Shown: piece after piece, positions 31,713 through 52,958 of the stretch | Layout: every line of letters begins with the position of its first letter | Numbering within the stretch: position 1 is the stretch's first letter | NCBI GenBank assembly: GCA_949948895.1 | Contig: CATLHE010000001.1 | Span: forward strand, 394,776 to 458,775 | DNA from: an uncultured Christensenella sp. | GTDB taxonomy: Bacteria; Bacillota; Clostridia; Christensenellales; Pumilibacteraceae | Reading direction: 5' to 3' | DNA length: 64,000 nt | Position numbers and translations under genes: made by a program | The notes under the pieces: model-generated | Told to the model about the DNA's origin: nothing | The model's input: the letters and a program-made list of their open reading frames with translations, nothing else | Databases searched by the model: none

Positions 31713-31723
31713 GATACCGTTTA

Positions 31724-31752
31724 ATATTATCACATAAGCTTTGCGTTTTCAA
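31724..31752 (-). promoter_or_regulatory. Predicted rhaB promoter with overlapping dyads
   Basis: Minus strand TTGAAA-17 nt-TAATAT. Perfect 10-bp inverted repeat AAGCTTTGCG (31736-31745) / CGCAAAGCTT (31790-31799), and inner AATGCG-TAACG-CGCATT (31751-31767). Confidence 0.65.
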
Positions 31753-31829
31753 TGCGTAACGCGCATTTTGACTAATATTTGAACGATTGCGCAAAGCTTC
31801 GGTCGTGAAACGTCCACTGTCATCCGCGC

Positions 31830-31858: not shown

Positions 31859-31872
31859 GAGGGTCAAATAAA

Positions 31873-32679
31873 ATGTTTCGGAAAAAGCCCATGTTTGTAA
31901 ACGAACGCGCAAACCAAATAATCGAATACTTAAAGATCCACAAGAAAGCCACGATCGGCGAACTTGCCGCCGCGCTTTTTGCGAGCGAGTCGACCATACG
32001 CCGCGATCTTACCGAAATGCAGGAATCGGGATTGGTAGCCCGCTATCACGGCGGAGCTATACTGCTCGACGGCGTGGGCGAAGTCTCTTTGTTTGTGCGC
32101 GCCGAAAAAGACGCGGAGGAAAAGGACGAGTGCGCCAATATCGCCATAAATCATTTTTCGTCCATGTTCATGAACGCGAAAACGGTGTTCATAGACAACT
32201 CGTCCACCTGCCTCGTGCTCGCCAAAAAACTAGATTTTACAAATAAAACGGTAATCACGAACGGACTTCAGATAGCTTTACAGCTCTCGCAAAAGCCGGA
32301 CATACAGTTGATAATGCCGGGCGGTCATGTACACTTAAGCACCAGCGCGATCACGGGCTCGCTCGCTACGAGAACGCTGAGCGACTTCGGTATCGATCTC
32401 ATGCTCTCGTCGTGCGCGGGGCTTAACGCTACGGGCGCGTATGAGCTGTCGCTCGAAACGGCGCAACTCAAGCAAGTTGCGGCAAACCAAAGCAAGCACC
32501 GCGTATTGCTTGCGACTACAAACAAGCTTCTCACCGACGCGTCGTACCGCGTGAACGCGCTCGACGCATACGACTTTATATTTACCACCGCCGATGACGC
32601 GCTTGTCAAAACTCTCGCGACGAGCGGCGCAAATATCATCAACAATAAGCTAAATAGCGTACCCCCCCCCCATGGCTAA
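31873..32679 (+). CDS. DeoR-family transcriptional regulator (probable rhamnose operon regulator)
   Basis: NERANQIIEYLKIHKKATIGELAAALFASESTIRRDLTEMQESGLVARYHGGAIL; DeoR C-terminal FIDNSSTCLVLAKKL, VMPGG. Confidence 0.88.
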   Translation: MFRKKPMFVNERANQIIEYLKIHKKATIGELAAALFASESTIRRDLTEMQESGLVARYHGGAILLDGVGEVSLFVRAEKDAEEKDECANIAINHFSSMFMNAKTVFIDNSSTCLVLAKKLDFTNKTVITNGLQIALQLSQKPDIQLIMPGGHVHLSTSAITGSLATRTLSDFGIDLMLSSCAGLNATGAYELSLETAQLKQVAANQSKHRVLLATTNKLLTDASYRVNALDAYDFIFTTADDALVKTLATSGANIINNKLNSVPPPHG

Positions 32680-32813: not shown

Positions 32814-32845
32814 CGCTCCGTAACGCATCGGAATGCGGATTTTTT
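32814..32845. terminator. Intrinsic terminator, likely bidirectional
   Basis: AAAAAATCCGC ... GCGGATTTTTT between convergent genes. Confidence 0.85.
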
Positions 32846-32857
32846 GTTGTCTCAAAT

Positions 32858-35339: not shown

Positions 35340-36050
35340 CTAATACGTACCGTACCGAGATAAATAATCGAGTAGACTCGGATAAAAAATATCGTCGTCC
35401 AACTGCTTCTGCGCGTTCTCGGACTTATCGACTACAACAGTTCTCGCGCACACATACTCGTCGTACAAGTAACCGTTGAGCCCCGACAAATACGAATAGT
35501 CGAGAACGAGATCGTCGCTGTCGTGCATGGCAAGCCCATACACGCCCGCGCCCGTGACCCTATACGATCTTACGGCTTGCGTTCCGTCGGTAGGATCGGA
35601 AAGCGTCACGGAATACAGATCGGTCGAGAGCTGGTCGTATGTATAACTGCCCTTGACGTCCACAGCTATCTGAGCAAACCTTCCGCCCCACTCGCCGGGG
35701 TTGCCCAATACAACTGTATATTCGTATTCGTAAGTAAAATCGCGTTTGAGTTTGAGACGCTGATCCATATTGTACGAAATACGGTGACCTTCCATATTCG
35801 AATTTATCGGGTACTCTGTGCTGAGCATGTGCATGCGATCGGTCTTGCTTACGTTGCCCGCGTCATGAGTTATCCTGAGCGCGTCCGCTTCGGAAGCGCC
35901 CAAGGTTTCCTGATATGTGAACGTACCTATGAGCTCGCTCTTTTCTGTCGGCTTGGATTTACCTCCGCCGTCGGAACTGCCGCACGCCGCAAGCCCGCAA
36001 AGCGACAGCGCGGCGATAGCGGCAAACATAATCTTCGTTGTTTTTTTCAC
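35340..36050 (-). CDS. Lipoprotein, paralogous to N-terminal part of the 43507..46587 protein (cassette A)
   Basis: Lipobox LAAC; shared SELIG.F, QRL.LKRD.TYEY, .SVTLSDP..G segments. Confidence 0.7.
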   Translation of the reverse strand: MKKTTKIMFAAIAALSLCGLAACGSSDGGGKSKPTEKSELIGTFTYQETLGASEADALRITHDAGNVSKTDRMHMLSTEYPINSNMEGHRISYNMDQRLKLKRDFTYEYEYTVVLGNPGEWGGRFAQIAVDVKGSYTYDQLSTDLYSVTLSDPTDGTQAVRSYRVTGAGVYGLAMHDSDDLVLDYSYLSGLNGYLYDEYVCARTVVVDKSENAQKQLDDDIFYPSLLDYLSRYGTY

Positions 36051-36060
36051 GGTTATCTCC

Positions 36061-37152
36061 TTACTGTAATGCGAGTATCGCGCCCGTCCATGCGGAGTGC
36101 GGTGCCGAAAAGCCGTGACCGTCTATTGTTACCTGCAAGTCGTCGCCTACCTGCTTTTCATCTATACCGTTTGCAAACGTCGCATTCGATACAAAATGGC
36201 TTACGTAACCGTCTATGTAATAAGCAAAGTCGTACACGCGCGTCACGCCCTCGGCGTCGGTATAAACGTATTTGCCGCGCGCGTTTGACGCTCCGCTCTC
36301 ACCGTCCGAGCCGTCCGTCTCGGGCTTTGTAACCAAAAGCGTGAGAGACTCTTTTCCGTCCTCGTCGATATTGGTAAACTCGATGGCGCGCGACGGAGAG
36401 TCGAGTACGATCAATTCATCTTCCACCGCGGTATACGCAAACGCCGTAGACACATTGCCACAACGCACCGTCACGTTGCTCACGCCTTTTACGGAAGACT
36501 CGGAAAGCCAAACCGAATAATTGCTCGGCGACGCGACTACCGTAGTCGTCCACTCGGGATGTTCGTCCTGCATGGTAAGCTGTTTGGGCGTGCCGCTGAG
36601 CTCAGCCCACATGACAAAGCCCTCGAGCTCCACGCGCCCGTCTTCGCCAACGTTTATCGCGGACGGAAGACTCCGCACGTCGATATGCTTTACCCCGAAC
36701 ACGGTAACGGGATAATATCCCTCGTAAGTGGTGTTGCCGTCTTCGTAATACACTCGCGCAGCTTTGACGCCAGCCGTACTCGTATCGACGTCGAGCTTGC
36801 AATCCTCGCGTATTTTGCCGTCTATCACGAGCGCGAAGCCGATTGGATCGGGCGTTTCGCCCACCACATACTCGACGCGCGCATCTTCCGTCACCAAAGC
36901 CGACGCTTTCTTGACCACTATTTCCGCAACGGCATTGCCGCGCGACGCCCAAGAAAGAAGCACCGAAAACGTAACGACCGTCGCTATCGTGGTACAGCCG
37001 TAAATAAGGTATTTCCACTTATTGCGCCCGAAATGTATCTTTTCGCCGAGCTTGATAAAAAACGATTTTAACTTCCCGCCGAGCTTGACGAAAAACGCGC
37101 ATAGCTTATCTTTAAACGCGGAAAGCTTTTGCTTCATGCTTGCCTTGCTCAT
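36061..37152 (-). CDS. Single-TM protein with Ig-like ectodomain and unidentified C-terminal domain (cassette A)
   Basis: Basic N-terminus, TM YLIYGCTTIATVVTFSVLLSW, VEYVVGETPDPIGF Ig-like segment; paralogous to 46595..48202. Confidence 0.7.
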   Translation of the reverse strand: MSKASMKQKLSAFKDKLCAFFVKLGGKLKSFFIKLGEKIHFGRNKWKYLIYGCTTIATVVTFSVLLSWASRGNAVAEIVVKKASALVTEDARVEYVVGETPDPIGFALVIDGKIREDCKLDVDTSTAGVKAARVYYEDGNTTYEGYYPVTVFGVKHIDVRSLPSAINVGEDGRVELEGFVMWAELSGTPKQLTMQDEHPEWTTTVVASPSNYSVWLSESSVKGVSNVTVRCGNVSTAFAYTAVEDELIVLDSPSRAIEFTNIDEDGKESLTLLVTKPETDGSDGESGASNARGKYVYTDAEGVTRVYDFAYYIDGYVSHFVSNATFANGIDEKQVGDDLQVTIDGHGFSAPHSAWTGAILALQ

Positions 37153-37595
37153 GCGTTATCCTCCCTCTTACTCGTCGAGAAAAACGCGCCGACTACAACG
37201 CAAACAATGGCGACGACGTACACAGCTATGCCCGCGATACTGCGTGGAACGCCTATCGCGTTTGCTTCCACGTCGCCCATATTGTGAACGGTAAAATAAA
37301 TACCTATCGGAGACAGACAGGGCGTAAAAAACTTGACCGCCGCTATCACGAGTGCAAATATAGCTATTATGTACAAAGCGTCGACAAACATCGGACGGTT
37401 GCCCATAAACAGCGAGTTGATCAAAATACAGCATATCGACCATATAGCTATTATCATAAGCGCCACAACCCATTTATCGGAAACAAAGTGAAACGCGTCG
37501 AAAGTAACAGCATACATGATGAATGCGACTATAGTCAGCAACAGCGCGGCGGCAAGTATGTAAAATCCCGCTCTCGGAGCTTTAATCTTTATCAT
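37149..37595 (-). CDS. Four-TM membrane protein (cassette A)
   Basis: Four hydrophobic segments; similar to 48199..49173 (IVAF..Y, IF.MGN+P-type loop, PC...IG). Overlaps both neighbours. Confidence 0.68.
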   Translation of the reverse strand: MIKIKAPRAGFYILAAALLLTIVAFIMYAVTFDAFHFVSDKWVVALMIIAIWSICCILINSLFMGNRPMFVDALYIIAIFALVIAAVKFFTPCLSPIGIYFTVHNMGDVEANAIGVPRSIAGIAVYVVAIVCVVVGAFFSTSKREDNA

Positions 37596-40500
37596 CGCCG
37601 TCGCCCTCCGTTTTTATTTCATTGTCCGCATACGCCGTCGAACCGTCTTCCGCGTCGCACGATATACTGATATCCGCGTTATCGGCAGTCTCCGCCTGTT
37701 CCGTACAGTGACCGCCTTGCGCCGACGCTTTGGCTTTTCTATCGCTCAGCACGCGCAAAACTACCGCGAGCACGGCAAGAACGCCGCACAAAACACCCGT
37801 ACCTATCGCTCCGCCGACAAGAGCTTTTTGCCACCAAAACACCTGTTCTTTTACAACAGTATTGGCGTCGTAGCCGTTGAGCGCGCTGCTGTTAGCCAAA
37901 GAATACATATAGTAGTGCATGTTTTCGGACAAGGCTTCGCACAGCTTGGGATCGCTTTTTACTTTGCTCTTATTGTTATAGTCGGGCCAGAAATTTGTGA
38001 GAAGGCTCTCGGCATTGGAAGTCGCCATAAACGTAACGTTGTTGATTACCGCGTCTTGCGGGTTAAAGAACCGTCCGCCTACGACCATATCCGTCGATAT
38101 AAGACCTTTGTATCCCCACTCGCCGCGGAGTATATTTTTCATCAGTCCCGTGTGCGCGTTTACGCCGCACGCGCCGACGCGCGAGAACGACGACATGAGC
38201 CCTATCGCGTTTACGGTGTGACCGTCGGCGTTTACGTATTTGACGTCCTCGCTCAAGCCCTGAAACGCTCTCAGCTCAAGCTCTCTCGCCGATTGCTCTT
38301 CCATAAACTGACACAGTCCTTCGCGGTACGATTCCTGCGTATTAAACGCGAAGTGTTTTGCTGAAAGTATCGCGCCTTTTGCGAGCCCGCCGCGAACGAA
38401 TGAAGTACCCAATATATTCGTGAGCATGGGGTCTTCGCTGTAATACTCGTGATTGCGCGAGTTGAACGGCGTGCGGTGAAGATTCATACCGGGCGCCCAG
38501 ATAATGGGGTTGCGGCTCCAAAGCATATCCTCGCCGTACATTCTGCCCTGTTCTTCCAATAACTCTTTATTGAACGTAGCCGCAGTCATCGGCTCGCAAC
38601 ACATATCGCAAGACATGTACCCGTAGTTAGGATCGCTTTCGGGCACAGCCATGACGCCGCTCGACGGTGCTTTACTGCCGATAGAGCGCGTCACGTTACC
38701 GTTGGGACCGTCTATCTGCCACACTTCGGGCGCGTTCACCGACTTAAAGAGCTTACAGCTCGCGCCGCCGTACGGCGCAAACGCCCACGCTTCGTCAAAC
38801 GTGATCTGACTGACTAAATACTCCCAACGCTCGTCGTCGTATGACGCGAACTTCATTTCCGCGATGGACAGATTTTCGAGCGGATTGCCCTCGTCGTCCT
38901 CTTCGGTGGAGTGATCGACCCCGAACTTTACGTCGGACGAACCGGTGGTAAACTGATAAACGCGGCTGTCCAAATACAGATTCATCGAGCTAGGCACGTC
39001 GAGTCTGACGTACGATTTGGGAAAAGTTCCAGCCCAATCGCTGCGAGAAAGGTATGTTACCGTATTCGGTTTATAGTAGTTGTAATCCGCATCGGCAAGC
39101 TGATTGCTTACCGTCTTTCCGCTTTCGGTCACCGAAAGAAGCTCGACGTTCACGCCGTTTGTATCAAACGCTATACCGCTGTCGTTTGCGGGATGCCACG
39201 CCGCGGCTTTATCGACGGACGGCGACTCACCGACTTCCGAGTACAGTTTGGACTCGTCGACGCCCTTTTTAAGCAACACGCTGTTGAGCGCGTCGTGCGC
39301 GCCGTTGCCTACCGCAAAGTAATACGTATCGTTTTCGAGTATATACCCGCCCGTAGCGCTTCCGTTTGCGACCGTCTTATCATAGCTCGCCAAGTATTTA
39401 AGCGCAAACTCGACGGTAACCGTGCGTTCCTCGTTCGCGTCGAGCTCTGTCTTCTCAAAACCGACGAGCTGTATCGCGCTCTTTTCGACGCCGTGTTCTT
39501 TGTCGTACTCCGTGTACGGCGATTGCGCATAAACTTGAACTACCGTTTTTGCGGCGCGCTCGCCCGTATTTTTGACCGCTATATCTATCTTTGCCGTCTT
39601 GCTCTCGGTATCCACTTCGAGCGAGCCGTCTACAATCTCTTGCGTAAACGTAGAATACGACAAGCCGTAACCGAACGTATACGACACTTCGTCCTCGTAC
39701 TTCCAAAGCGAAGTCGTCGCGCCGTGCCCCTGCCCTATGGGTGAAGCCGCTCTGCCTCTGCCTTCCACGACGTCGGCATAACGCGTTTCGTAGTAATAGT
39801 AGCCCGTATACAAGCCTTCCGCAAGCACGACGTAGTGGCTGTTGTCCGCATTGTTGTAACGCGACGTATCCGACCACTCGAATTTGCCGTTGCCGCTCGG
39901 CGACGTGATACCGAAGTTTTGCGCCGCGGGCGACGCGGAAGCGTCGACCGCGTAGGTGTCGGGAAGGCTTCCCGACGGCGAAGCTTTGCCGCTTATCACG
40001 CGCGCCACGCCGTTCATTCCGTAACTGCCGGGCAATCCTATCCAAAGCACCGAATCGACGTTAGGATCGTTTTTGAGATCGTCTATCTCCATAGCTACCG
40101 CGCTGTTCACGAGCACGATAACTTTATCCGATATCTGAGCCGCGACGCTTATAAGATCGCGCTCGTCTTGCGAAAGCCCGACAGCGCTTTTCGATCCGTC
40201 GCTTTTATCCGAAACGCCGTATTCACCGGGCAGGTATTCGCGACCCTCGCCGCTAGACCTTCCCACGACGACAAAACACGCGTCGTCGTACATTTGATAC
40301 TGCCCGCATTCGGAAAGCGTGATACGCGGCTCGTTTATCGCAAAAGGCGCGCCCGAGCTTCCGTTTGCCTCGCTGCCCGCGACAAGCGAAGGAAAATTCT
40401 TGCCGCTGTACGCGTTTACGAGCGCGGGGTTTATCGTGATGTTTTGGTTTTTGAACGCGGCTTCTATCGTGATCGGAAGGGATATCTTGCCGTCCGCGGT

Positions 40501-40947
40501 CTTGACAGTTTGCTTGCGGATTGGGCTTCCGACTATCCCGCCGTAAAACGCAAGCGAAGTATCGCGAAGATTGCCGCTCTTGTCGTACGTATACGCGCGC
40601 GAGCCCAAAACGGTGACTTTTATTTCCTCGTCGGAATCGGCGGAACGAAGCGGCAGTGCGCCGTTCTCGTTTTTAAGAAGCACGCACCCCTCTTCGCCTA
40701 TTCGCTCCGCAACGTTCTTTCTCGCCGTAAGCATTTCCACGGTGTTCTCGTAATCGGACTTAAACCCGTAAGCTTCCGCACTGCCCGCAAGAGCGGTGTT
40801 CACGCCGAGCACGTTGTTTATGAGCGCGGTATAGTCGCTTATTTTGCCTATGGAGCTTGCGCCTATCAAGAGCGCGCACAAAAACGCGCACAGCACGGCA
40901 AAACCGCGAACTAAATTATACTTGTTTACTTTACTTCTCTTTTTCAT
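37582..40947 (-). CDS. GH3-family glycosidase, permuted domain order, N- and C-terminal TM anchors (cassette A)
   Basis: GCVLLKNENGALPL (GH3 C domain) and FGYGLSYSTF/Fn3-like part come first; the barrel-type part MNLHRTPFNSRNHEYYSEDPMLTN, SAKHFAFN, KGLISTDMV follows. Hydrophobic segments near both termini. Confidence 0.88.
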   Translation of the reverse strand: MKKRSKVNKYNLVRGFAVLCAFLCALLIGASSIGKISDYTALINNVLGVNTALAGSAEAYGFKSDYENTVEMLTARKNVAERIGEEGCVLLKNENGALPLRSADSDEEIKVTVLGSRAYTYDKSGNLRDTSLAFYGGIVGSPIRKQTVKTADGKISLPITIEAAFKNQNITINPALVNAYSGKNFPSLVAGSEANGSSGAPFAINEPRITLSECGQYQMYDDACFVVVGRSSGEGREYLPGEYGVSDKSDGSKSAVGLSQDERDLISVAAQISDKVIVLVNSAVAMEIDDLKNDPNVDSVLWIGLPGSYGMNGVARVISGKASPSGSLPDTYAVDASASPAAQNFGITSPSGNGKFEWSDTSRYNNADNSHYVVLAEGLYTGYYYYETRYADVVEGRGRAASPIGQGHGATTSLWKYEDEVSYTFGYGLSYSTFTQEIVDGSLEVDTESKTAKIDIAVKNTGERAAKTVVQVYAQSPYTEYDKEHGVEKSAIQLVGFEKTELDANEERTVTVEFALKYLASYDKTVANGSATGGYILENDTYYFAVGNGAHDALNSVLLKKGVDESKLYSEVGESPSVDKAAAWHPANDSGIAFDTNGVNVELLSVTESGKTVSNQLADADYNYYKPNTVTYLSRSDWAGTFPKSYVRLDVPSSMNLYLDSRVYQFTTGSSDVKFGVDHSTEEDDEGNPLENLSIAEMKFASYDDERWEYLVSQITFDEAWAFAPYGGASCKLFKSVNAPEVWQIDGPNGNVTRSIGSKAPSSGVMAVPESDPNYGYMSCDMCCEPMTAATFNKELLEEQGRMYGEDMLWSRNPIIWAPGMNLHRTPFNSRNHEYYSEDPMLTNILGTSFVRGGLAKGAILSAKHFAFNTQESYREGLCQFMEEQSARELELRAFQGLSEDVKYVNADGHTVNAIGLMSSFSRVGACGVNAHTGLMKNILRGEWGYKGLISTDMVVGGRFFNPQDAVINNVTFMATSNAESLLTNFWPDYNNKSKVKSDPKLCEALSENMHYYMYSLANSSALNGYDANTVVKEQVFWWQKALVGGAIGTGVLCGVLAVLAVVLRVLSDRKAKASAQGGHCTEQAETADNADISISCDAEDGSTAYADNEIKTEGDGDDKD

Positions 40948-40959
40948 GTGTAGTAACCG

Positions 40960-43455
40960 TTACTCCGCTTGGTTTATATCGTAATGACTGCCGAGCGAAT
41001 CGGATGCGTTTTCGGGACTGCGCATATTTATGACGGTTATGACAACGTCTCCGTCTATGGTGTATTCGGGTGAGCCGCCGTACGCGCCGACCGAGAAGTT
41101 TGCAATACTCAAATCGAAACCGCTCTTTAATGCAATCGACGATACGCTATTGAATGCGGCAAACTCGCTCGCCGTCGTATTATCGGGATCGTAATAAGAA
41201 AGCTCGGCGCTGCCTTTTACCAAATTGAGCGAGCCGCCCTGTATGCCCCAACCCTTGCTCTTTACGATGAGTTTTCCCGCTATTCCGCCCTCTTCGCTTC
41301 CGACGGTGACGGTAACCGCTTGCAACGCGCCGCAATTATCGCCAGGTGCAGCAGTAATATCGAGCGTGCCGTACACGTTTACGGCTACCGATTGCAAAGC
41401 TCCGTTACTACTATTGGGTGCTACGGTTATATTCAGATTACCATATACGTCAACAGTAGAAGCTCCGCCCCAGCTGATTATCCCCGCCGCAAAATTGTTT
41501 ATCTCCAAGGTTCCGTGCTCTCCAACCTCAACTTTGTCGCCCCCTCTATGAAGCGAAATACCGCAGTTACCGGAACCGTTTTGAGTAATGGTTAGTTTTC
41601 CGCTGAGAATCTTATAATCGAGGTCGCGATTACCGTCACTGTTTATACCCTCTGAGGTAGTAGTTATATTAACGTTGGGCTGAACGGTGTTTTCCGCATT
41701 GCCTACTATTAGTTTGTTATTTTCTCCGTTGCTTCCGACGGCTATCCTCGGAAGATCCGCGTCGCTTTCTATTATCAATACCGTACCTATGGAAACAGAG
41801 TCGGTAACGGTGAGCTTGCCCTCGCCCGCGATCTTGAGATTATGGTCCACACCCCATTCGTCCGCAAATGTCAAAGTCGAAATCGTAGCGTCGCCGTCTA
41901 CGCTCAATATCACGTGCTCGTCGCGCGTTGTTATAGATAGCGCGCCGCTGTAATTGTCGGTCACGCGGATAATAAACTCTTGCTTTACGGGATCGTACGT
42001 AATGCCATTGTCGAGATTTTCCTCTTTATAGCAATCCGCGACCTCATACTTCGTTCCGTTTACTATCACATACCTATTGCCGAAATAACCTACTTCGCTA
42101 CCGCGCGTACCGCAGTCGTTGTCGCACACCCTGTAAAATTTATTATCGGTCGTATCGAACTCCGTTTTATCTTTGCCGTACGCGTGACCGAGCGCGGTGA
42201 TTATGCCGTCGGTATATTTGTCTCCGCATTCACATTCGTGATCGGTATGCCCGTCCGCCGTACACGTGGGTGCAACGACCGTTTCGGTATAGTCGTGATC
42301 GGCTTGGGTGCTTTCTATCTTGCCGTCGCAAACCGAGCAGTTGTGCCAATGCTTGCCGTCGTCCTTTTGCCACGCCGTTTCCGCGGTATGGGCGGATTCC
42401 GTGCTATCTATCTTGTTTCCGCACACCGAGCAGTTGTGCCAATGCTTACCGCCGTCCTTTTGCCATACCGTTTCCGCCGTATGCTCACCCGTAGCGGGTA
42501 TAACGACCGAACCGGATATGACCTGCGTGCAAGCCGCATCCGAATAATATACGCCGCTCTTTTCCCAATACTCGATATTGCCGTCCGCGCCGCAAGTCGC
42601 TTCTTTGCGCTCGTGATGAACGACTACGCCGAGTTGCGGTATCTCTGTATTTTCGTTGCGCGTCTCGCCGCACTCGCATTCTTCGTGCTTGACGCCGGGC
42701 GAAGTCGTTGTGGCTTCGGTATCAATCGTCCATTCAAATTCGTGATCGGCTTCCGTGCTTTCTATCTTATTGCCGCACACCGAGCAGTTGTGCCAATGCT
42801 TGCCGTCGCCCTTTTGCCACGCCGACGCCGCCGTATGCTCGCCCGTAGGCTGTAAAACAGTATCTTCGAGATTTATCTCGTGCTTACCCTCTGCGTCCGA
42901 ATAGTACTTTGTGCCGTCGGTATAATAGGCTATATTGCCCGCTGTATTGCAGGTAGGCGCTTGCGCGGGCACCAAAGTCAGCCCCGGCGCGGGCGTGCCG
43001 CTGCCCGTCGGCGGCACGGTTTCGGGAACGGTCGCGAAACCGCATTCGCATTCTTTATGCCGCGAGCCCGACTGCGTTTCGGTCGGCACTCTGTCGTATA
43101 TCCAATCGCCGTCTAGATCGTGCGCTTCTTTTTGCGTAGCGGGCAGCGTGCAGACCGTGCAAACTTTCCAGTGCCCACTCTCGTCGTCGTATTCGAAATC
43201 GCCCGCGGTATGTCCGTCGGGATCGATCCTCACGCTTCCGAGTGTTATCTCGTTTTTACCGTCCTTATCCGAGTAATATTTTACTCCGTCGGTATAATAA
43301 CCGCTATGCCCGGGCTGTGTGCAGGTTTGCGGCACGGGTTCTACGTAACGAATGGTTTTGCCGTCTTTATCGCCGCATGCGGCGAGCCCCGCGCAAGCGG
43401 AAAGCCCCATTACCGCAGCAAGCGCCGCGGTGACAATACGTTTGTTTCTCATCAT
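40960..43455 (-). CDS. Large surface lipoprotein with Cys-rich repeats and Cthe_2159-like beta-helix C-terminus
   Basis: Lipobox LAAC; four HW(H/K)xCxxC repeats and three HxECECG motifs; C-terminal short-strand repeats (LTFADEWGVDHNLKIAGEGKLTVTDSVSIG...). Confidence 0.72.
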   Translation of the reverse strand: MMRNKRIVTAALAAVMGLSACAGLAACGDKDGKTIRYVEPVPQTCTQPGHSGYYTDGVKYYSDKDGKNEITLGSVRIDPDGHTAGDFEYDDESGHWKVCTVCTLPATQKEAHDLDGDWIYDRVPTETQSGSRHKECECGFATVPETVPPTGSGTPAPGLTLVPAQAPTCNTAGNIAYYTDGTKYYSDAEGKHEINLEDTVLQPTGEHTAASAWQKGDGKHWHNCSVCGNKIESTEADHEFEWTIDTEATTTSPGVKHEECECGETRNENTEIPQLGVVVHHERKEATCGADGNIEYWEKSGVYYSDAACTQVISGSVVIPATGEHTAETVWQKDGGKHWHNCSVCGNKIDSTESAHTAETAWQKDDGKHWHNCSVCDGKIESTQADHDYTETVVAPTCTADGHTDHECECGDKYTDGIITALGHAYGKDKTEFDTTDNKFYRVCDNDCGTRGSEVGYFGNRYVIVNGTKYEVADCYKEENLDNGITYDPVKQEFIIRVTDNYSGALSITTRDEHVILSVDGDATISTLTFADEWGVDHNLKIAGEGKLTVTDSVSIGTVLIIESDADLPRIAVGSNGENNKLIVGNAENTVQPNVNITTTSEGINSDGNRDLDYKILSGKLTITQNGSGNCGISLHRGGDKVEVGEHGTLEINNFAAGIISWGGASTVDVYGNLNITVAPNSSNGALQSVAVNVYGTLDITAAPGDNCGALQAVTVTVGSEEGGIAGKLIVKSKGWGIQGGSLNLVKGSAELSYYDPDNTTASEFAAFNSVSSIALKSGFDLSIANFSVGAYGGSPEYTIDGDVVITVINMRSPENASDSLGSHYDINQAE
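42312..42840. repeat. Intragenic near-identical repeats encoding DGKHWHNCSVCGNKI
   Basis: Three copies of (c)accgagcagttgtgccaatgctt(g/a)ccg(t/c)cg(t/c)ccttttgcca(c/t)(g/a)ccg near 42325, 42425 and 42780. Confidence 0.85.
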
Positions 43456-43506
43456 TTCCTCCCGAATATCATAAGTTACGGACTCGACCTTAAAAGATCG
43501 AGATAT

Positions 43507-46500
43507 CTACACTTTTCCGCTTTGTCTCAGCACCCCGTTATTTTCTATCGTGAGATGGAGTTCCCACGTAGCGGGTTCCCAAGGCTCCAAGCCGCACTTG
43601 TACCCGTCCACGACCAAAAGTCCGTTGTTCACGAGTTTTGCGTACTCGTCGCCGCCGCCCTTGGTCCAGCACTGAATGGGTACGTCGCAGTTTTTAAACA
43701 CCAATTTCGCAGAATCGGTCACCGTTATCACCTCGTCGCCACTCTCGGCGTTTATGCCGCGTCCCATGGTGTCTGAGTTCTTCCAATCCTGACCGTTCTC
43801 GATAACGATGTCGCAGTTTTGCGCAGTGACTATCGCGCCGCGCTCCAACGCCAATACGCCGCTTCTGCACATTGCGCGCATGTAAATACTTCCGCCGTTG
43901 AGAAGCATATTTTGCACTTTTGCGGCGTAGTTCACGTCCCACCACGAATTGAAGAACGTATTTACAAGCTCGATACTTCCCACGTCGTAGCGTCCGCTTA
44001 CGGTGCGTATCGTAACGGGATTGAGCGCTTCTATGCAATACCCGCTGTCGGCGGTTATTTTAAGCGCGCCCGCGTCGACCGTAACGTCGCCCCGTCTTAT
44101 GCCCGCGCTGTCCACCGAGCCGCTATCGACACGGATATCGGTAACGCCGCCGTTAAATACCATTTGACGGTTCACCGACTTATCGTCGGCGTCTTTCGCG
44201 TCGTCGCCCGTAATGCCGTACGCGCTCGCTTCTATAACAACCGCGCCGTCGTTTACGGTAAAGCTTTGATCTTTGTCGCCTTTGAGATAGACGCCGTTCA
44301 AAAAGCCTTTTGCGGTAAGCGTGCCGTCAACAACGATATCGCCCTGAGTAACGACCGCCGTCTTTTTGCTCGCGGTGTTCCCGACATATACGATATTGAG
44401 TTTGCCGCCGTTTACTATTTCGAGCGACGCGCATACAAGGCTGTCGTCGTCGGTCGCGTTATAAGTAAAGAGATTGACCGTCGCGCCGTCCACTGTGAGC
44501 TTGCCGCCTGCGTAAATATTGCCGTAAACGTTTACCGTGCCGTCACCCGTTATCAAAATATCCGAATTGGTGCGCACCGTGCCGCGGTTTCTCATAAAGT
44601 CGCGTATCACGTTGTTTATGCTCGACTCGCCCGTCGCCGTCACGGTAAGCTTGCCTATGCCGCCGTCGGTGACGAATATGCCGTCTATGGACGCGCCGTC
44701 CATCGTAACGTCGTACGAATTGTCGGCGTTTCGCACGACCGTATAGCCGTCGCCCTCCAATGACGGAACGCTCGCGCTGAACGTGTTGCCGTTTACATAC
44801 AGCTTATCGCCGAACGCGTTGGCATCGTTATCCTCGATCTTTTCAAGCGCGAGAGCGTATCTGAACTCGCCCGTCGAAAACTCGACCGCGCCGTCGTCTC
44901 TGTTTACAGGCGGATAAATGCCGTATACTACGCTGTCGCGATCGTGATACCATTCCGCCGACTTGACCAAAGAGAACAGAGCGGAAGCCGCGGGTCTTTG
45001 ACCTTCTTCGCCGTAAATATCGGTGCGGGCTATCGCGCGCGTCACCGAATACTCCGCCGTTCCCGCAAGCTGTATCGTACCGTCGAACACAGTAACGCAT
45101 ACGGGCGAATCGTAATCGAAAATATCGGTTACCGCGACCGATACGATATAGCGGTCGCCGTCTGCCGCCTTGACAGGCGCTACGTCGTACTTTTCCTTAT
45201 CCCCGACCGTGATGTAGGCTTTTAAAAGTCCGAAGTCTTCGGCTGCATCAAACTCGAACACGAGCGAGGGCACGCCGCTTTGAATAGCGAGCGAAGGCAC
45301 CGTCTGCCAAGTGAATCCATCTACAGGTTTATCGAAGTTGTGAAGCGTGATACCGTCGCGAAGCCACCAATCGGTGTGGTAAACGTTTTCGCCCGCGCCG
45401 CCTCGCGACGCAAAAATCAAGCTGTTTGCTGCGGCGCTCGGCGTGATCGACGCTCCCGCATTTTTCGCAGTGACGAGCATGCTTGCCGCCAAATGATTCA
45501 CAGCTCTCGCGCCGTAATCGGTTTTGTCGCCCGATTTTATTACAAGCTCTTCCAAGTAATTCGCCGCGTCAAACTCGATATTGCTATCGCTTATCGATAT
45601 GGCGAGTTTCCGTCCAAATGCCGAATAGCTTATAGGATAAACGAACAGGTTTCCGCCGTTTACCTTTTCTTTATCGGATACGGTTGCGCCGTCTACCGTG
45701 ATCGAATCGATATCCGAAGCCGTCTTGACGCAAACGGCGATACCGTCGCCCACTCTGAGATTTACGCCGTAGCCGCTTACCGTTTTTACAGGCATATCCG
45801 CGTGTTTCGGTTTTCCTTTTTCGGGATCGGGCGGCGTAGGTATATCGGGATCGCTCGGCGTTACCGACGACGAATAACTGTAATAGGGCGCGACGTCGTT
45901 CATGAAATCGGTGTATAACATATCCGAATGAAGAACGCGCTCGCCGTCCGTGCGCTCCACGGAGACCGTGCGGCCTTTGACGTACCTATCGAACTCCGCT
46001 TCGCTTTCGGCTACGCTCGCAAGATCGAGCTTGTAGCTTGCCGAGCTCGAAAGCTTCCAAGAATAAACATTTCCCTCGCCCGTGATAAACGCGCCGTATA
46101 TCGATTCTTCGCCGCGAACTGGATCGGAAAGCGTGACGGAAAATTTCTCTTCGTCCGTCTCTATGTACTCGAACGTTCCGTACGCCGTAGCCTCGAGCTT
46201 GGCAAGATCGACGTTAGCCGACTGCGACACTATCCTTACCGTGATCGATACGGAATACTCGTAAGTGTAGTCGCGCTTGAGCCTGAGCCGCTGATACGGC
46301 GTGTAACGCGCTCCAATGTCGGTAACGGTATTCAGAGGATAAACGCTTGAAGTGTAAATATACGTATTGCCGTCGTCATCAAGCTCGCCCACAAGCTCGA
46401 TATCGTTTGTGAGCGTCACGTTCTCCGACTCATTGGATTCAAACAGCCCGATCAGCTCGCTGCGTTTGCCGTTGTCTTTTTTGTCTCCGTCGTCTTTCTT

Positions 46501-46587
46501 ATCGCATGCGACAAAAGCAAACCCGAAAAGAGCAAGCGCAACGGCGACTATGACAGTGTACAGTATTTTTGACCCGTGTCTTTTCAT
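43507..46587 (-). CDS. Large surface lipoprotein, cassette B: paralog of 35340..36050 plus long beta-helix-like C-terminus
   Basis: Lipobox FVAC; KRSELIGLFESNE, QRLRLKRDYTYEY, FSVTLSDPVRGEE; later G-x-L-T-V/I-x repeats resembling Cthe_2159-type domains. Confidence 0.72.
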   Translation of the reverse strand: MKRHGSKILYTVIVAVALALFGFAFVACDKKDDGDKKDNGKRSELIGLFESNESENVTLTNDIELVGELDDDGNTYIYTSSVYPLNTVTDIGARYTPYQRLRLKRDYTYEYSVSITVRIVSQSANVDLAKLEATAYGTFEYIETDEEKFSVTLSDPVRGEESIYGAFITGEGNVYSWKLSSSASYKLDLASVAESEAEFDRYVKGRTVSVERTDGERVLHSDMLYTDFMNDVAPYYSYSSSVTPSDPDIPTPPDPEKGKPKHADMPVKTVSGYGVNLRVGDGIAVCVKTASDIDSITVDGATVSDKEKVNGGNLFVYPISYSAFGRKLAISISDSNIEFDAANYLEELVIKSGDKTDYGARAVNHLAASMLVTAKNAGASITPSAAANSLIFASRGGAGENVYHTDWWLRDGITLHNFDKPVDGFTWQTVPSLAIQSGVPSLVFEFDAAEDFGLLKAYITVGDKEKYDVAPVKAADGDRYIVSVAVTDIFDYDSPVCVTVFDGTIQLAGTAEYSVTRAIARTDIYGEEGQRPAASALFSLVKSAEWYHDRDSVVYGIYPPVNRDDGAVEFSTGEFRYALALEKIEDNDANAFGDKLYVNGNTFSASVPSLEGDGYTVVRNADNSYDVTMDGASIDGIFVTDGGIGKLTVTATGESSINNVIRDFMRNRGTVRTNSDILITGDGTVNVYGNIYAGGKLTVDGATVNLFTYNATDDDSLVCASLEIVNGGKLNIVYVGNTASKKTAVVTQGDIVVDGTLTAKGFLNGVYLKGDKDQSFTVNDGAVVIEASAYGITGDDAKDADDKSVNRQMVFNGGVTDIRVDSGSVDSAGIRRGDVTVDAGALKITADSGYCIEALNPVTIRTVSGRYDVGSIELVNTFFNSWWDVNYAAKVQNMLLNGGSIYMRAMCRSGVLALERGAIVTAQNCDIVIENGQDWKNSDTMGRGINAESGDEVITVTDSAKLVFKNCDVPIQCWTKGGGDEYAKLVNNGLLVVDGYKCGLEPWEPATWELHLTIENNGVLRQSGKV

Positions 46588-46594
46588 GTCTACC

Positions 46595-48202
46595 TCACAG
46601 TCCCATTATCGCCCCGAGCCATTCCTCCTCGGGCGCGGTAAAGGTATCGGTTATCACGCCTTCGCCGCGTTCGAAGAACGAAACGTGGGCAAACAGCGTG
46701 CCTCTCGTGTACGAGTTGTACTTGTTGGGATCGTCGTCGGGCAACGCCTCGTTGACAACGATGTCGCTCACCGACGCGTCGGCGGTTATGTCGCTGCTGT
46801 GCGTGGACGACAGCGGAACGTAAGTCCAAGTCCACGCCTGCATATAGAACGACATTTTATGAGATACGCCGCTGCGATCGGTGTAAATATAAACGCCGTA
46901 GCTGTATCCGTTGCCCGTGCCCAAAAGCGGGTTCATATCGTAGCTGCAAATGTAAAGCGTAAGAGACGGCAGCGCAGTCTCGGGTTCCGTAGGTTCGGTC
47001 GAATCGTCCGCCGTCGGCTCGGTAGGTTCATCGGTATCTGGCGTGTCGGTAGGATCGGTCGGCTCCGTCGGTTCTTCCAATTCGGGAGCCCTGTACGTGA
47101 AATGAAGTATCCTATCGTCCGAACCTATTACCACTTTAAACCCGTTATCGTCTACGATATTGCCGTTTACCACCGCGCTCTGCCATTCCGCACGGTTTGC
47201 TACAAACGTATTTCCGTCCACAGTAGCTGAGTATTTTTCGCCGTCAAAAGCTTCCGCAACGTACGACGAACCGAACGCTTCCTCTTTGTCTTTAAGTTCG
47301 TAAGAGAACGCGTACTCGGTCTCGGTCTCGCCGTCGTTGTAGACATAATATCCTGAGGACTTACCCACGCCGTGCGTCTGATAACTCGGCGTTTTTTGAG
47401 TGACGATAAGCGTAAGACCTTCGGCGCTTTCTTCGGTCGGCGTGTCTGTTACGTTCTCGCCGTCCTGCCCGTCGTCAAGCGCTTCGGGCGCGGACTTTTG
47501 GAACTTGACTATATCTTTCGTCGATTCGACGATATAGCTCTTGCCCGCCGCATTATAAAAGGAGAAGGACGCCGAAACGTTGCCGCAATAGTACGATATG
47601 CCGTAAAACCCGCGCGTCGAGAGATCCTCGGTAAGAGTGTACGTATAAGTATTTTCGTCGAGCTCTATTCGATACCCGCCGTCTACCGCTTTCACGTCGC
47701 CGAAAACGTCGGTCTCAGGTTTTTCCGCGAGAATGGCGTGCATTTTGAAATGCTCGTCGGCAACGGCACTGTCGCCGTCTACGGCTATGCTATTCGGATA
47801 GCTTTCTATATCGAGACTGCGCACAAAATATACGCGGCAATCAAACTCGGCAACATAGCTCAAATACTCGCTTGCTTGATAAATTATCCTTACCGTTTTA
47901 TCTCCCGCCGACGAAAAATCGGCGTTTATCTGACATTCCTCGATGGGTATGCGCTTCGATCCTATATCGAGTTCCGCGCCGTCGGGATTGAACGACTGAC
48001 GAACAAGATACTCCGTCGCGAGTTCGTTTTCGCATACGAGAGTAGCGTTTTTCATTTGCACCACTTGCTCGACCTTGCCCTTCATCATCCACGTCAGCAA
48101 GCATGCCGCAAGTATCACGGTGGCTATTCCCGACAAACCGTATACAAAATACTGTAAATGCTTTTTCACAAACGCGAGAGCTTTTCCGATCATTTCGTTC
48201 AT
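46595..48202 (-). CDS. Single-TM protein with Ig-like ectodomain, two copies of unidentified domain and TPE-rich linker (cassette B)
   Basis: TM YFVYGLSGIATVILAACLLTW; linker EEPTEPTDPTDTPDTDEPTEPTADDSTEPTEPE between domain copies at aa ~258-345 and ~410-535. Confidence 0.72.
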   Translation of the reverse strand: MNEMIGKALAFVKKHLQYFVYGLSGIATVILAACLLTWMMKGKVEQVVQMKNATLVCENELATEYLVRQSFNPDGAELDIGSKRIPIEECQINADFSSAGDKTVRIIYQASEYLSYVAEFDCRVYFVRSLDIESYPNSIAVDGDSAVADEHFKMHAILAEKPETDVFGDVKAVDGGYRIELDENTYTYTLTEDLSTRGFYGISYYCGNVSASFSFYNAAGKSYIVESTKDIVKFQKSAPEALDDGQDGENVTDTPTEESAEGLTLIVTQKTPSYQTHGVGKSSGYYVYNDGETETEYAFSYELKDKEEAFGSSYVAEAFDGEKYSATVDGNTFVANRAEWQSAVVNGNIVDDNGFKVVIGSDDRILHFTYRAPELEEPTEPTDPTDTPDTDEPTEPTADDSTEPTEPETALPSLTLYICSYDMNPLLGTGNGYSYGVYIYTDRSGVSHKMSFYMQAWTWTYVPLSSTHSSDITADASVSDIVVNEALPDDDPNKYNSYTRGTLFAHVSFFERGEGVITDTFTAPEEEWLGAIMGL

Positions 48203-49173
48203 TTCGCGTTTCCCCCATCGGCGGTAGATTTTTCGTTCGCCTTCTTTGCCGCGGCGCCCTTGCTTGCGGTCTTACCAGCCGTGCTCTTGCTCGCGGTTTT
48301 GCTTGCTGTTTTGTCCGCCGCGCTTTTGCTCGTTGTCGTTTTGGCGGCTGTTGTCTTACCGGAAGAAGTCTTACGCGCGGCAGGCTTTTTGACCGTCGGC
48401 GTAGCGACTTCCGTCTCTATTTGCTCGGTTTGTTCGTACGTGTCGGAAGCGACGGGCTCCGCCCTTTCGACGGGCTCTGCGCGATCCGCTATATCGGTTG
48501 AAGCGGCTTCATCTTTTGCCGCTTGTTCTTCTTGTACTTGCGCGTTATTTTCTTCCGCGTTTTCGGCGGCAATCGCATCTTTGGTTTCGATATTTACCGC
48601 CTCGCCGCCGTCCGCTTTAACTTCGGACATAGCTTGCTCGGCGAATTCAGACGCGGGTTGCTCGGAAGCAGTTGTTTCCGCAGCTTCTGCCGCCGCCGTT
48701 TTCGACTTTTTCTTTTTGCCGAACGACCATTCCGCGGGCATGAATGCCGCGGCTATCACGAACACAGCCGACAGCACGTAAAACACGGCGGTCATGATGG
48801 AAGTGTTTGTTATCGCTCTGTTCTTTTCGACGTTGCCCATTATAAGATCGCCCGCGCCTAGCGTATAGCCTATGGCGTTTACGCAAGGCAGCATGAGTTT
48901 TAACAGCGCGTAAATGAGAAAGAACGCGATAGCGGGATAAATGATAAGCGTCCAAAACGGCTTATCGCCTTTGAACAGCATGTTGAGCGCAAGAAACACC
49001 ATGCACCACATAGCGAATATCGTGAAAGTTATCGTCATGCGGTCGTGCTCGAACGGCTCGATCTTGTACGTTTTAAAGTACAGACAGAACGCGACTATCG
49101 AAAGGATAAACGCAACGCATATCGCAATAAAGCCGAGCCCCGGCTTTTTCAGCTTTAGACCGAGCTTAGCCAT
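48199..49173 (-). CDS. Four-TM membrane protein with long Lys/Ala/Ser/Thr-rich histone H1-like C-terminal tail (cassette B)
   Basis: Start at MAKLGLKLKKPG; four TM helices, acidic middle, then AARKTSSGKTTAAKTTTSKSAADKTASKTASKSTAGKTASKGAAAKKANEKS. Confidence 0.7.
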   Translation of the reverse strand: MAKLGLKLKKPGLGFIAICVAFILSIVAFCLYFKTYKIEPFEHDRMTITFTIFAMWCMVFLALNMLFKGDKPFWTLIIYPAIAFFLIYALLKLMLPCVNAIGYTLGAGDLIMGNVEKNRAITNTSIMTAVFYVLSAVFVIAAAFMPAEWSFGKKKKSKTAAAEAAETTASEQPASEFAEQAMSEVKADGGEAVNIETKDAIAAENAEENNAQVQEEQAAKDEAASTDIADRAEPVERAEPVASDTYEQTEQIETEVATPTVKKPAARKTSSGKTTAAKTTTSKSAADKTASKTASKSTAGKTASKGAAAKKANEKSTADGGNAK

Positions 49174-52100
49174 TGTCATTGCCCTCCACTTTCGATTTTG
49201 CAGTATCTTCTGCAATCTGTAATTCGTCGTCCGTTCGAGATATTTTATTGTCTTCAATATCGTCCGTAGCCGCGTCGGAAGATACGGTCAGATTGGCGTC
49301 GCCGGCATTCTCCGCAACGGGTTTTTTGCGTTTTTTGATAACCAATTCAAACACAACGGCTAGCGCCGCCAATACTATCGCAAGCCCGCCCGTCGTCGCG
49401 ATAAGAGCGACCAAAGCGTGTTGCCACGGCGATACGGTCTCCGTTACGGTGTCGCCCGGCGCATAACCGTTGAGCGCGCTGCTATTGGCTATCGAGTACA
49501 TATAGTAATGCATATTCTCGTACAGCGCGGTCATGAGCTCGGGACAGCTCTTGACAAGCTGTTTATTCTTATAACTCGCCCAATCGGGATGTTCCAAGAA
49601 AGTCTCGCCGCTCGAAGTCGCCATAAACGTTACGTTGTTGACTACGCTGTCCTGCGGATTGAAAAAGCCCGTGCGCGACACCATGTCGGTGGAAATAAGT
49701 CCCTTAAAGCCCCACTCGCCGCGCAGTATGTTTTTCATAAGTCCCGTATGAGCGTTCACGCCGCATACGCCCACGCGCGAGAACGACGACATCAGTCCGA
49801 GCGCGCCGAGCGTATTGCCCGACGTGTTTATGTACTCTATGTCTTCGCTTAGTCCTTGGAACGCTCGAAGCTCCATCTCGCGCCCCGTCTGCTCGTCAAA
49901 GAACTGAACGAGCCCCTCGCGGTACGATTCCTGCGTATTAAAAGCAAAGTGCTTGGCGGAGAGTATCGCGCCCTTTTTGAGCCCGCCCGTGACGAACGCC
50001 GAACCCAAAAGATTGGTAAGCATGGGGTCTTCGCTGTAATACTCGTGATTACGCGAATTGAACTGCGTGCGGTGAAGATTCATACCGGGCGCCCACATTA
50101 TGGGGTTGCGGCTCCAAAGCGTGTCTTCTCCGAATATCTCGCCCTCTTCTTCCAAGAGCTGTTTGTTGAACGTAGCCGCGACAACGGGTGCGCACGGCAT
50201 ATCGGCGCTTCGGTATCCCGCGTTGGGATCGGACTCGCTAACAGCCATAACTCCTCTGTCGGGAGCGAGCGTGGAATACCCGCGGTTTACGTTGCCGTTG
50301 GGTCCGTCTATCTGCCACACTTCGGGCGCGTTGACCGAGCGGAACGCTTCGCACTTGGTGCCGCCGAGCGGCGCGAACTGCCACGCTTCGTCAAACGTTA
50401 TCTGCTGTAAAAGATAGTCCCAGCTCTCGTCGTCGTACGCTTTGCCTTTGTACGACGCTATATCCGTGTTTTCGAGCGGCACGCCCGTATTCTCGTCTTC
50501 TTCGTCGGTATGATCGACGCCGAATATCACGTAATCGGGCGTTTCTCCGACCTGACCGAAGTCATAAACGCTCGCATTGTACGCCAAGTATTTATCCATG
50601 GCGGGAGTACTTTCGAGCCTTGTATACGAGCGCGGATAAGTGCCCGCCCAATCGGAACGCGAAAGATATTTTATCGTATCTTTCTTGAAATAGTTGTAAT
50701 CGGCGTCCGCCATTTGGTTGCCTATCACCGTGCCGTTTGCGGACTTTGCGAGCGTCTCGCCGTTTACGCCGTACGAGTCGAACGGGAACGCTTTTAAGTT
50801 TGTCGTGCCTATTTTTTGATCTGCGATATCCCAAACGAATACGCCGCTCTCGTTGATAGAACTGCCCTCTTCGATATACAAAAGCGATTCGTCTACGCCT
50901 TGCCCCACCGCAAGAATATTGTTTAACGCTTCATGCGCTCCGTTGCCTATCGCAAAGTAATGCGTGCCGTCTTCCAAAATGTAGCCGCCCGTAACGCCGT
51001 CGTGCACATACGTTTTGTCATAGGTCGCAAAATATTTGAGGCTCGCGGTGAGCTCCACGGTCGTTTGCGCTTGGGGCTGTATGACTCCCGTCTTTTCAAA
51101 CGCGACAAGCTGTATGGCGCTCTTTTCAACGCCGTGCGCTCTGTCGTAATCGGTATAGGGCATTTGAACGTAAAGCGTCACGACCTCCTTGCCAGCTACG
51201 TCGCCTGTGTTTGTCACCTTTACGCGAAGAGATACCGTCTCGTCAACGTCGTTGTATACGAACGAGTTTTCCACTATCTCCTGTTCGAACGTGGTGTACG
51301 AAAGCCCGTACCCAAACGGATAAGTCACCTCGTCGCCGTAATCCCAACGCGACGCGCCGTCCACAGCGCCCACGCTCGAAGCGGCGTTACTGTTTTTTCT
51401 GCCCGCGATATTCGCCGCGTCCAATACCGCGTCGTTATAGCGCGTCTCGTAATAATAATAGCCGGTATATATGCCTTCCGCCATTACCACATAATGCCCG
51501 TTGCTCGGCGCGGTGTACTTACCGTCTTTCCATGCGAATTTATCGACGCCGTCGGGATCGCCGTCGCCGAAGTTTCTCGCGGCGGGCGCATTGGACGCAT
51601 TCACCGCGTAAGTATCGGTGAGCTTGCCGCTCGGCGCGGACTTACCCACGATAACGCGCGCTACTCCGCCCAAGCCGTAAGACCCGGGAAGCCCTATCCA
51701 CAAAACGGAATTGACGCGCTCGTCGTTTTTGAGCTCGTCTATTTCCATCGCGACCGCGCTGTTTATAAGCACGATAACGTTGCCGTGAGATATACTGTCG
51801 GCTACTTCTATAAGCTTGCGCTCCTCGTCGCTTAGCCCTATCGCGCTCTTTTGCGTGCTGCCCGCTTTGACGCCGCTCTTGCCTGGGAGATAGTCTCTGC
51901 CTTCTCCGCTCGTCCTGCCTATAACGACGATGCAAGCGTCGTCATAATCGGCATAATCGCCCGTGTCTAGCAAATTGACTTCGGGCTCGTTAATGGAATA
52001 CGCGCCGCCCGCGCTGTCAGCCGCTTCCGAGCCTTCGGGGAACGGCGAGTAATTCTTGGACGAATAAAACCGCTTCATCGCGGGGTTTATCGCTATGTTT

Positions 52101-52597
52101 TCCGCCGTCAGCGCGGTCTCCAAAGTCACGGGCGAATCGATACGCTTCGTGCCGCTGCCGTCTTTTATAGTTACGCTCTGCTCGTATATAACGCTTCCCG
52201 TGATACCGCCGTAAAACGTCAAACGCGTATCGCGGAGCGATCCGTCGCTTTTGTATGTATACGGACGGTTGCCGAGAACGGTAACGCGCTTGCCGTTATC
52301 CGCGTTTGCTTTTATGGGCAGCGCGCCGTCGTTTTTGAGCAGTACGCACCCTTCTTCCGCGAGCTGTTCCGCGATCCTCACGCGCTCGGTGAGCATGTCG
52401 GTTATGGAATCGTATTCGGACATATACGAATACGTTTCAGAAGAGCCGACCTTTGCGGACACTCCGCCCAAAAACTCGTCCACTTTCGGTTTATAGCTCG
52501 GAGACGTCGCTATGCCGTATGCGCCCCAGATAAGCGCGCATAAAAATGCGGCAAATGTGGCGAAGCCTCTGAAAATTTTCGTCGATATTTTCATCAT
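49166..52597 (-). CDS. GH3-family glycosidase, permuted domain order, N- and C-terminal TM anchors (cassette B)
   Basis: Same order as 37582..40947: GCVLLKNDGALPI first, GYGLSYTTF, then NLHRTQFNSRNHEYYSEDPMLTN, SAKHFAFN, KGLISTDMV; C-terminal TM ALIATTGGLAIVLAALAVVFELVI. Confidence 0.88.
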   Translation of the reverse strand: MMKISTKIFRGFATFAAFLCALIWGAYGIATSPSYKPKVDEFLGGVSAKVGSSETYSYMSEYDSITDMLTERVRIAEQLAEEGCVLLKNDGALPIKANADNGKRVTVLGNRPYTYKSDGSLRDTRLTFYGGITGSVIYEQSVTIKDGSGTKRIDSPVTLETALTAENIAINPAMKRFYSSKNYSPFPEGSEAADSAGGAYSINEPEVNLLDTGDYADYDDACIVVIGRTSGEGRDYLPGKSGVKAGSTQKSAIGLSDEERKLIEVADSISHGNVIVLINSAVAMEIDELKNDERVNSVLWIGLPGSYGLGGVARVIVGKSAPSGKLTDTYAVNASNAPAARNFGDGDPDGVDKFAWKDGKYTAPSNGHYVVMAEGIYTGYYYYETRYNDAVLDAANIAGRKNSNAASSVGAVDGASRWDYGDEVTYPFGYGLSYTTFEQEIVENSFVYNDVDETVSLRVKVTNTGDVAGKEVVTLYVQMPYTDYDRAHGVEKSAIQLVAFEKTGVIQPQAQTTVELTASLKYFATYDKTYVHDGVTGGYILEDGTHYFAIGNGAHEALNNILAVGQGVDESLLYIEEGSSINESGVFVWDIADQKIGTTNLKAFPFDSYGVNGETLAKSANGTVIGNQMADADYNYFKKDTIKYLSRSDWAGTYPRSYTRLESTPAMDKYLAYNASVYDFGQVGETPDYVIFGVDHTDEEDENTGVPLENTDIASYKGKAYDDESWDYLLQQITFDEAWQFAPLGGTKCEAFRSVNAPEVWQIDGPNGNVNRGYSTLAPDRGVMAVSESDPNAGYRSADMPCAPVVAATFNKQLLEEEGEIFGEDTLWSRNPIMWAPGMNLHRTQFNSRNHEYYSEDPMLTNLLGSAFVTGGLKKGAILSAKHFAFNTQESYREGLVQFFDEQTGREMELRAFQGLSEDIEYINTSGNTLGALGLMSSFSRVGVCGVNAHTGLMKNILRGEWGFKGLISTDMVSRTGFFNPQDSVVNNVTFMATSSGETFLEHPDWASYKNKQLVKSCPELMTALYENMHYYMYSIANSSALNGYAPGDTVTETVSPWQHALVALIATTGGLAIVLAALAVVFELVIKKRKKPVAENAGDANLTVSSDAATDDIEDNKISRTDDELQIAEDTAKSKVEGNDNG

Positions 52598-52928: not shown

Positions 52929-52958
52929 CGAACAAAGTCTGAAATGCGGAGTCGGCAT

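Follow-up and report, generated by a model that had tools for sequence, protein, structure and literature searches.

Two four-gene surface cassettes built around a permuted, membrane-anchored GH3 enzyme in an uncultured Christensenella sp., and their linkage to rhamnose genes

A 64,000-nucleotide (nt) stretch of the genome of an uncultured Christensenella sp. (contig CATLHE010000001.1, positions 394,776 to 458,775; hereafter the window) carries two minus-strand cassettes, A and B. Each encodes, in this order, a glycoside hydrolase family 3 (GH3) enzyme, a protein with four transmembrane (TM) helices (TM4), a single-TM ectodomain protein (TM1) and a lipoprotein (LP) (Table 1). All eight open reading frames (ORFs) lie where a preliminary description, made from the sequence letters, had placed them, and the genes overlap or nearly abut as it reported, with overlaps of 4-14 nt or gaps of 7-10 nt inside each cassette. 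The A/B paralogy that it had recognized by eye extends to every position rather than to GH3 alone: BLASTP identities are 57% over 1139 amino acids (aa) for GH3 (E=0), 32% for TM4 (E=4e-18), 27% over 349 aa for TM1 (E=6e-30) and 30% over 243 aa for LP_A and the N-terminal domain of LP_B (E=2e-19). Both peptide pairs quoted as examples, including FSVTLSDP/YSVTLSDP in the lipoproteins, are present in the sequences. A further lipoprotein gene, X, sits between the cassettes, separated from LP_B by 51 nt and from GH3_A by 12 nt, and another, Y, begins 28 nt after LP_A. Because the gaps are only 12-51 nt, the genes from GH3_B through Y could form one transcription unit; a promoter scan performed at chance level overall, and the best candidate it gave lies 67 bp ahead of GH3_B.

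Both cassette enzymes contain PF00933 and PF01915 above the Pfam cut-offs, as expected of GH3 members, and their domain order (GH3_C 88-359, Fn3-like 468-547, GH3_N 788-954) is the permuted sandwich, fibronectin type III (FnIII), barrel arrangement of GlyA1-type enzymes. A hydrophobic helix stands at either end of each protein; neither the permutation nor this double anchoring had been noticed in the preliminary description. The best match in the PDB is GlyA1 (5k6l), a permuted rumen enzyme and the closest solved structure; BrGH3A and the P. barengoltzii enzyme (presumably 5wug) are of the same permuted kind. The likeness to GlyA1 comprises the permuted alpha/beta-sandwich, FnIII and TIM barrel domains, the acid/base E143 and nucleophile D709, which align with identical residues in 21/21 cassette GH3s (Table 1 for GH3_A), and most of the -1 subsite, where D532, R597, K630, H631 and R641 are likewise identical in all 21. 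Both catalytic residues are invariant across the wider set of 48 permuted TM-anchored GH3s. Two glycon-site residues of GlyA1 are not kept: the position of Y677 is F in 21/21 cassette enzymes, and W710, which follows the nucleophile, is replaced by M in 20 and by Y in one, although neither residue is needed for membership of the permuted subfamily as judged by domain order. Since the catalytic and subsite residues are retained and Y677 and W710 replaced, the cassette GH3s should be catalytically active with an altered -1 pocket. Beyond these substitutions, they differ from GlyA1-type enzymes in having a dedicated 4-TM partner and a TM helix at each end, whereas the papers on GlyA1 and BrGH3A mention no TM helix. 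To our knowledge, the characterized permuted GH3 enzymes are soluble proteins.

The GH3 enzyme and its 4-TM partner are the conserved core of the system, and the genes for the single-TM protein and the lipoprotein are additions of particular lineages; that this pair is widespread had also been overlooked. Distant permuted GH3s of other Clostridia (about 30-36% identity) precede small 4-TM genes that lack BLAST similarity to TM4 but match it by profile comparison (hhalign, E=2.8e-11). We rejected the idea that this likeness reflects hydrophobicity, as control comparisons with reversed profiles and sensor-kinase TM regions reached only 0.08-0.55. All cassettes carry a 4-TM partner, and among non-cassette permuted GH3s sampled from the family, 20 of 22 are directly followed by a 4-TM gene. 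The same holds for none of 20 ordinary GH3s from the same and neighboring genomes, a set in which 16 show the canonical domain order and four have an N-domain match only. Conversely, in 15 genomes, at least 39 of 52 strong 4-TM matches lie immediately next to a permuted GH3 match and at least six more have one just upstream, placing at least 45 of the 52 behind a permuted GH3. Distance matrices for the two proteins are strongly correlated (r=0.85 for 48 pairs; 0.78 for the 27 non-cassette pairs), with none of 2000 permutations reaching such values. At one locus (L016:10013-13678; L and G numbers are our handles for loci and genomes), GH3 and 4-TM share a single open frame of 1221 aa, possibly through a sequencing indel. 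Apparent losses of TM4 proved artefactual, the gene being fused to GH3 in L016 and masked by overlapping ORFs in L017, L026 and L027; a seemingly wrong-strand GH3 in L027 was likewise an ORF-picking artefact, with the gene and its partner intact. Neither TM4_A, TM4_B nor five distant relatives match any Pfam or NCBIfam model above cut-off.

The GH3-4TM pair seems to have multiplied many-fold in related bacteria. GH3_C-domain matches number seven in the window's own genome and 30-46 in each of seven genomes of 1.5-2.0 Mb (G013, G017, G032, G033, G034, G038 and G047); among the matches listed, frames of about 1000 aa hold most of those in the GH3-rich genomes. Some frames reach about 2000-2300 aa and contain two GH3 matches each (e.g., G006:C6). 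The genome that contains the window encodes two more permuted TM-anchored GH3s outside any cassette, on contigs C10 and C12 (L011:4525-8241 and L012:7435-10761). These have charged C-terminal tails, that of the C10 protein being K/A/T-rich, and we saw no 4-TM gene immediately downstream of them. LytTR response regulators and GHKL-type histidine kinases adjoin many permuted GH3 loci (L021, L025, L026, L029, L030, L033, L069 and L070), with an example at L012:863-3105 in the same genome as the window.

A PDB search with LP_A gave no match at E<0.7, a PDB fold search with LP_A and TM1_A returned nothing at E<0.001, and NCBIfam yielded only sub-cut-off scores for the small cassette genes. TM1_A is modeled as a cytoplasmic helix, one TM helix, immunoglobulin (Ig)-like domains and a C-terminal beta domain, and Big_3 was found in 3 of 19 members of its family. 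An unnamed C-terminal domain of about 100 aa (LTLxVT...F...W) is common to TM1 and Y and occurs twice in both TM1_B and Y. X contains EHTAxxxWQKDxGKHWHNCSVCGxKI-type repeats, which have paired cysteines and precede a beta-strand-rich region. We infer that LP and TM1 bind substrate.

The complete cassette recurs in other gut bacteria. A scan of 85,462 species genomes with the two cassette GH3s as queries identified 31 loci, and every locus with GH3 identity of at least 57% and enough flanking sequence has 4-TM, TM1 and LP genes in order. This neighborhood search recovered the four-gene order at about 20 loci of other gut Clostridia, with the small genes kept beside GH3. Two loci from a different genus within the family (L079 and L080, about 55% identity) also have the cassette, L080 ending before LP, so that the gene order holds for every relative with GH3 identity of 54% or more and sufficient flank, and L025/L068 is the single known cassette locus from another family of the order. 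The named records are metagenome-assembled genomes, several from rumen, rabbit or deer gut, labeled Clostridia, Clostridiales, Bacilli or Christensenella. We set aside weak LP matches in eleven other genomes (E about 1e-4 to 1e-3), which are limited to the initial part of the profile, as signal-peptide-like.

Four single-gene trees recover an identical B clade (window B, L023, L024, L027 and L036). The congruence of these trees implies that the four genes are co-inherited as a unit, as the preliminary description had suggested, and that the A/B divergence predates the window genome. Its further reading as a tandem duplication does not survive in the sense of a recent event, since A and B fall into distinct ancient clades in each of the four trees; "tandem duplication" is therefore misleading. 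The two types lie on separate contigs in G007 and G522, and a B-like and an A cassette occur within about 16 kb in G682. Cassette B proteins did gain extensions, as first described. That of LP_B appears to be a derived fusion: in L106, LP and the extension are two successive genes, the latter still separate downstream.

Much functional information comes from neighbors that the preliminary description did not mention (23751-35311 and 52944-54194). Directly after Y comes a block encoding a DeoR-type regulator, RhaB, RhaA, RhaD, a GH78 alpha-L-rhamnosidase and an MFS_2 transporter; the Rha names rest on sequence and synteny. No signal peptide is apparent in the GH78 enzyme, which is presumably cytosolic. 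Relatives of at least one gene of this block flank cassettes L015, L016, L019, L021, L024, L025 and L036. All 12 cassette genomes have a GH78 ortholog, whereas across the family 28 of 74 genomes show a GH78 match as strong. Of the eight informative genomes, five have the ortholog no more than about 12 kb from a cassette (chance P about 2e-6 under a simple uniform model that takes genomes as independent). Seven GH3-4TM pairs form the sister group of the cassette clade in a 48-member GH3 tree (Shimodaira-Hasegawa-like approximate likelihood ratio test [SH-aLRT] support 93); all seven are linked to GH78 and three also to RhaB and RhaA. Because rhamnose genes are linked to both the cassettes and their sister clade, rhamnosides are the best-supported substrate class.

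Table 1. Genes of the two cassettes and their surroundings (positions in the window; pLDDT, predicted local distance difference test)
Feature	Coordinates	Strand	Description	Evidence
GH128-type secreted endo-beta-1,3-glucanase	52944..54194	+	Divergent from cassette B	Pfam PF11790 3e-48; PDB 6uaq E=2e-42
GH3_B	49166..52597	-	1143 aa; permuted GH3 (GH3_C, Fn3-like, GH3_N), TM helix N- and C-terminal	Pfam PF01915/PF14310/PF00933
TM4_B	48199..49173	-	324 aa; 4-TM partner, cytoplasmic tail K/A/T-rich	4-TM family profile match E=1e-27
TM1_B	46595..48202	-	535 aa; single-TM ectodomain protein, C-terminal domain x2	BLASTP, domain copies
LP_B	43507..46587	-	Lipoprotein; N-terminal LP domain and ~780-aa extension	BLASTP to LP_A
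X	40960..43455	-	831-aa lipoprotein between cassettes; homologs adjoin cassettes at L015, L026, L036	
GH3_A	37582..40947	-	1121 aa; permuted GH3, TM-anchored at both ends; acid/base E234, nucleophile D953	
TM4_A	37149..37595	-	148 aa; 4-TM partner; conserved TM3-TM4 loop PCLSPIGIYFTVHNMGDVEANAIGVPR	
TM1_A	36061..37152	-	363 aa; single-TM, Ig-like domains and C-terminal beta domain	AlphaFold pLDDT 88
LP_A	35340..36050	-	236 aa; small lipoprotein, predicted beta-strand-rich	AlphaFold pLDDT 88
Y	32858..35311	-	Big_3-repeat lipoprotein, TM1 C-terminal domain x2	Pfam Big_3 2.5e-69; BLASTP to TM1_A 1e-5; profile matches
DeoR-type regulator	31873..32679	+	Homologs adjoin cassettes and rhamnoside-operon GH3s	From sequence
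RhaB (rhamnulokinase type)	30408..31733	-	Homologs adjoin cassettes L015, L016, L019	From sequence
RhaA (L-rhamnose isomerase type)	29176..30486	-	66-81% homologs adjoin cassettes and rhamnoside-operon GH3s	From sequence
RhaD (rhamnulose-1-phosphate aldolase type)	28358..29179	-	69-78% homologs adjoin cassettes	From sequence
GH78 alpha-L-rhamnosidase	25811..28354	-	Linked in many loci	Pfam PF17389 2.6e-101
MFS_2/GPH-type sugar transporter	23751..25745	-	Homologs adjoin L021, L025, L029, L124, L125, L127	Pfam PF13347 9e-52

We lean toward a model in which each cassette forms a surface exo-beta-glycosidase complex that acts on rhamnose-bearing substrates and feeds import and rhamnose catabolism. 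The permuted GH3 would be held on the outer face of the membrane by its two terminal helices and paired with its small 4-TM protein, whose conserved TM3-TM4 loop is predicted to face outward beside the enzyme. The single-TM Ig-type protein and the small lipoprotein would be the other members of the complex, probably acting as spacer and in substrate capture, and the GH3 would cleave beta-glycosyl units from a rhamnosylated substrate that they present. Candidate substrates are rutinosides and other rhamnoglucosides of plants, or glycans that contain rhamnose. The MFS_2 transporter would import the released rhamnosyl sugars, the cytosolic GH78 would cut them and the rhamnose would pass through RhaA, RhaB and RhaD. 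Type B may represent a second, anciently diverged version coupled to the GH128 endo-beta-1,3-glucanase. A rutinosidase or rhamnoglucosidase role for the cassette GH3s is putative and derives from genomic context, namely linkage to GH78, RhaB/A/D and the transporter. It has a fungal precedent in the Acremonium GH3 rutinosidase alphaRbetaG II, which is likened here by its rutinoside substrate class and not by sequence, and for which the text consulted (PMC10591481) describes no membrane partner.

Several observations weigh against this model. With Y677 replaced by F and W710 by M, the specificity of the cassette GH3s is not readable from known enzymes. In G552, G006 and G008 the GH78 ortholog and the cassette are on different contigs, and the shortness of several other contigs does not allow a judgement; moreover, rhamnose genes could share a neighborhood with a GH3 acting on a different sugar. 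Our trees are rooted by midpoint. Finally, the GH128 neighbor of type B argues that beta-1,3-glucan is at least one substrate. This gene, whose product has the Glyco_hydro_cc catalytic domain of its family (PF11790) and matches GH128 endo-beta-1,3-glucanases (PDB 6uaq and relatives), lies outside the four-gene cassette. Its conserved, divergent placement beside type B (40-59% identity) indicates that B may act on, or with, beta-1,3-glucan, and to that extent the glucan-processing role first proposed for both cassettes finds support. The link to GH78 and L-rhamnose catabolism is broader and statistically stronger.

Beta-1,3-glucan harvesting, in which GH128 (elsewhere GH16) would cut outside the cell, the tethered GH3 trim the oligosaccharides and the accessory proteins bind glucan, strikes us as rather unlikely. 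It would suit the two other permuted GH3s of the window's genome, which adjoin GH16-like secreted proteins (assigned by eye), and the preference of permuted BrGH3A for laminaribiose over cellobiose (PMC11233000). However, GH128 was found next to type B and L020 only, whereas type A and the sister clade adjoin rhamnose genes. The nearby rhamnose genes would also accommodate use of pectin or rhamnogalacturonan-type polysaccharides, a reading that draws on a lipoprotein of about 665 aa (GENE5), perhaps a beta-helix pectinase-like protein, that type A loci add beside the cassettes of L016-L019, L022, L026 and L075. One GENE5 weakly matches a pectate-lyase-like Pfam family (5e-4), but this falls below the curated cut-off, three other members are unmatched and GENE5 was not found in the window, making this function improbable. 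We give very little credence to the GH3-4TM pair being a sensor that reads outside glycosides and signals inward: charged cytoplasmic tails and the LytTR/GHKL two-component genes adjoining several permuted GH3s would fit, but the catalytic residues are invariant in 48/48 and Pfam found no cytoplasmic signaling domain.

Permuted GH3s are in themselves an already known kind of enzyme. In the open-licence literature, our search turned up nothing on the 4-TM, single-TM or lipoprotein families, and no account of two-end anchoring with an obligate-looking 4-TM partner, of the large expansion of the pair or of the two further subunits. Multi-gene surface glycan systems that are expanded many-fold, with local regulators and glycosidases, are familiar from the SusC/SusD-type loci of Bacteroidetes, and we liken the cassettes to these in how they work, the common features being a multi-gene surface glycan system, expansion, local regulators and glycosidases. 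Unlike those loci, the cassettes have no SusC or SusD homolog that we could see, no outer membrane is expected and the enzyme itself is a membrane component. We tentatively raise the possibility, which we hold as somewhat short of probable, that GH3 and 4-TM together make up a novel type of integral-membrane glycosidase complex, with the 4-TM protein acting as more than an anchor, for example orienting the enzyme or passing released sugar on. The pair would then have expanded to dozens of copies per genome in small-genome gut Clostridia as a counterpart of SusCD-type systems, and the four-gene cassette would be its more elaborate form, in which two surface subunits are added.

The cassettes probably harvest rhamnose-bearing plant compounds at the surface of a gut bacterium. 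A GH3 family anchored at both ends and almost always accompanied by its own 4-TM gene would give uncultured Clostridia of herbivore guts a recognizable surface glycan-harvest system, and would help explain why genomes of 1.5-2 Mb hold 30-46 GH3-domain genes. It would also offer a first functional handle, rhamnosides, on three nameless protein families.

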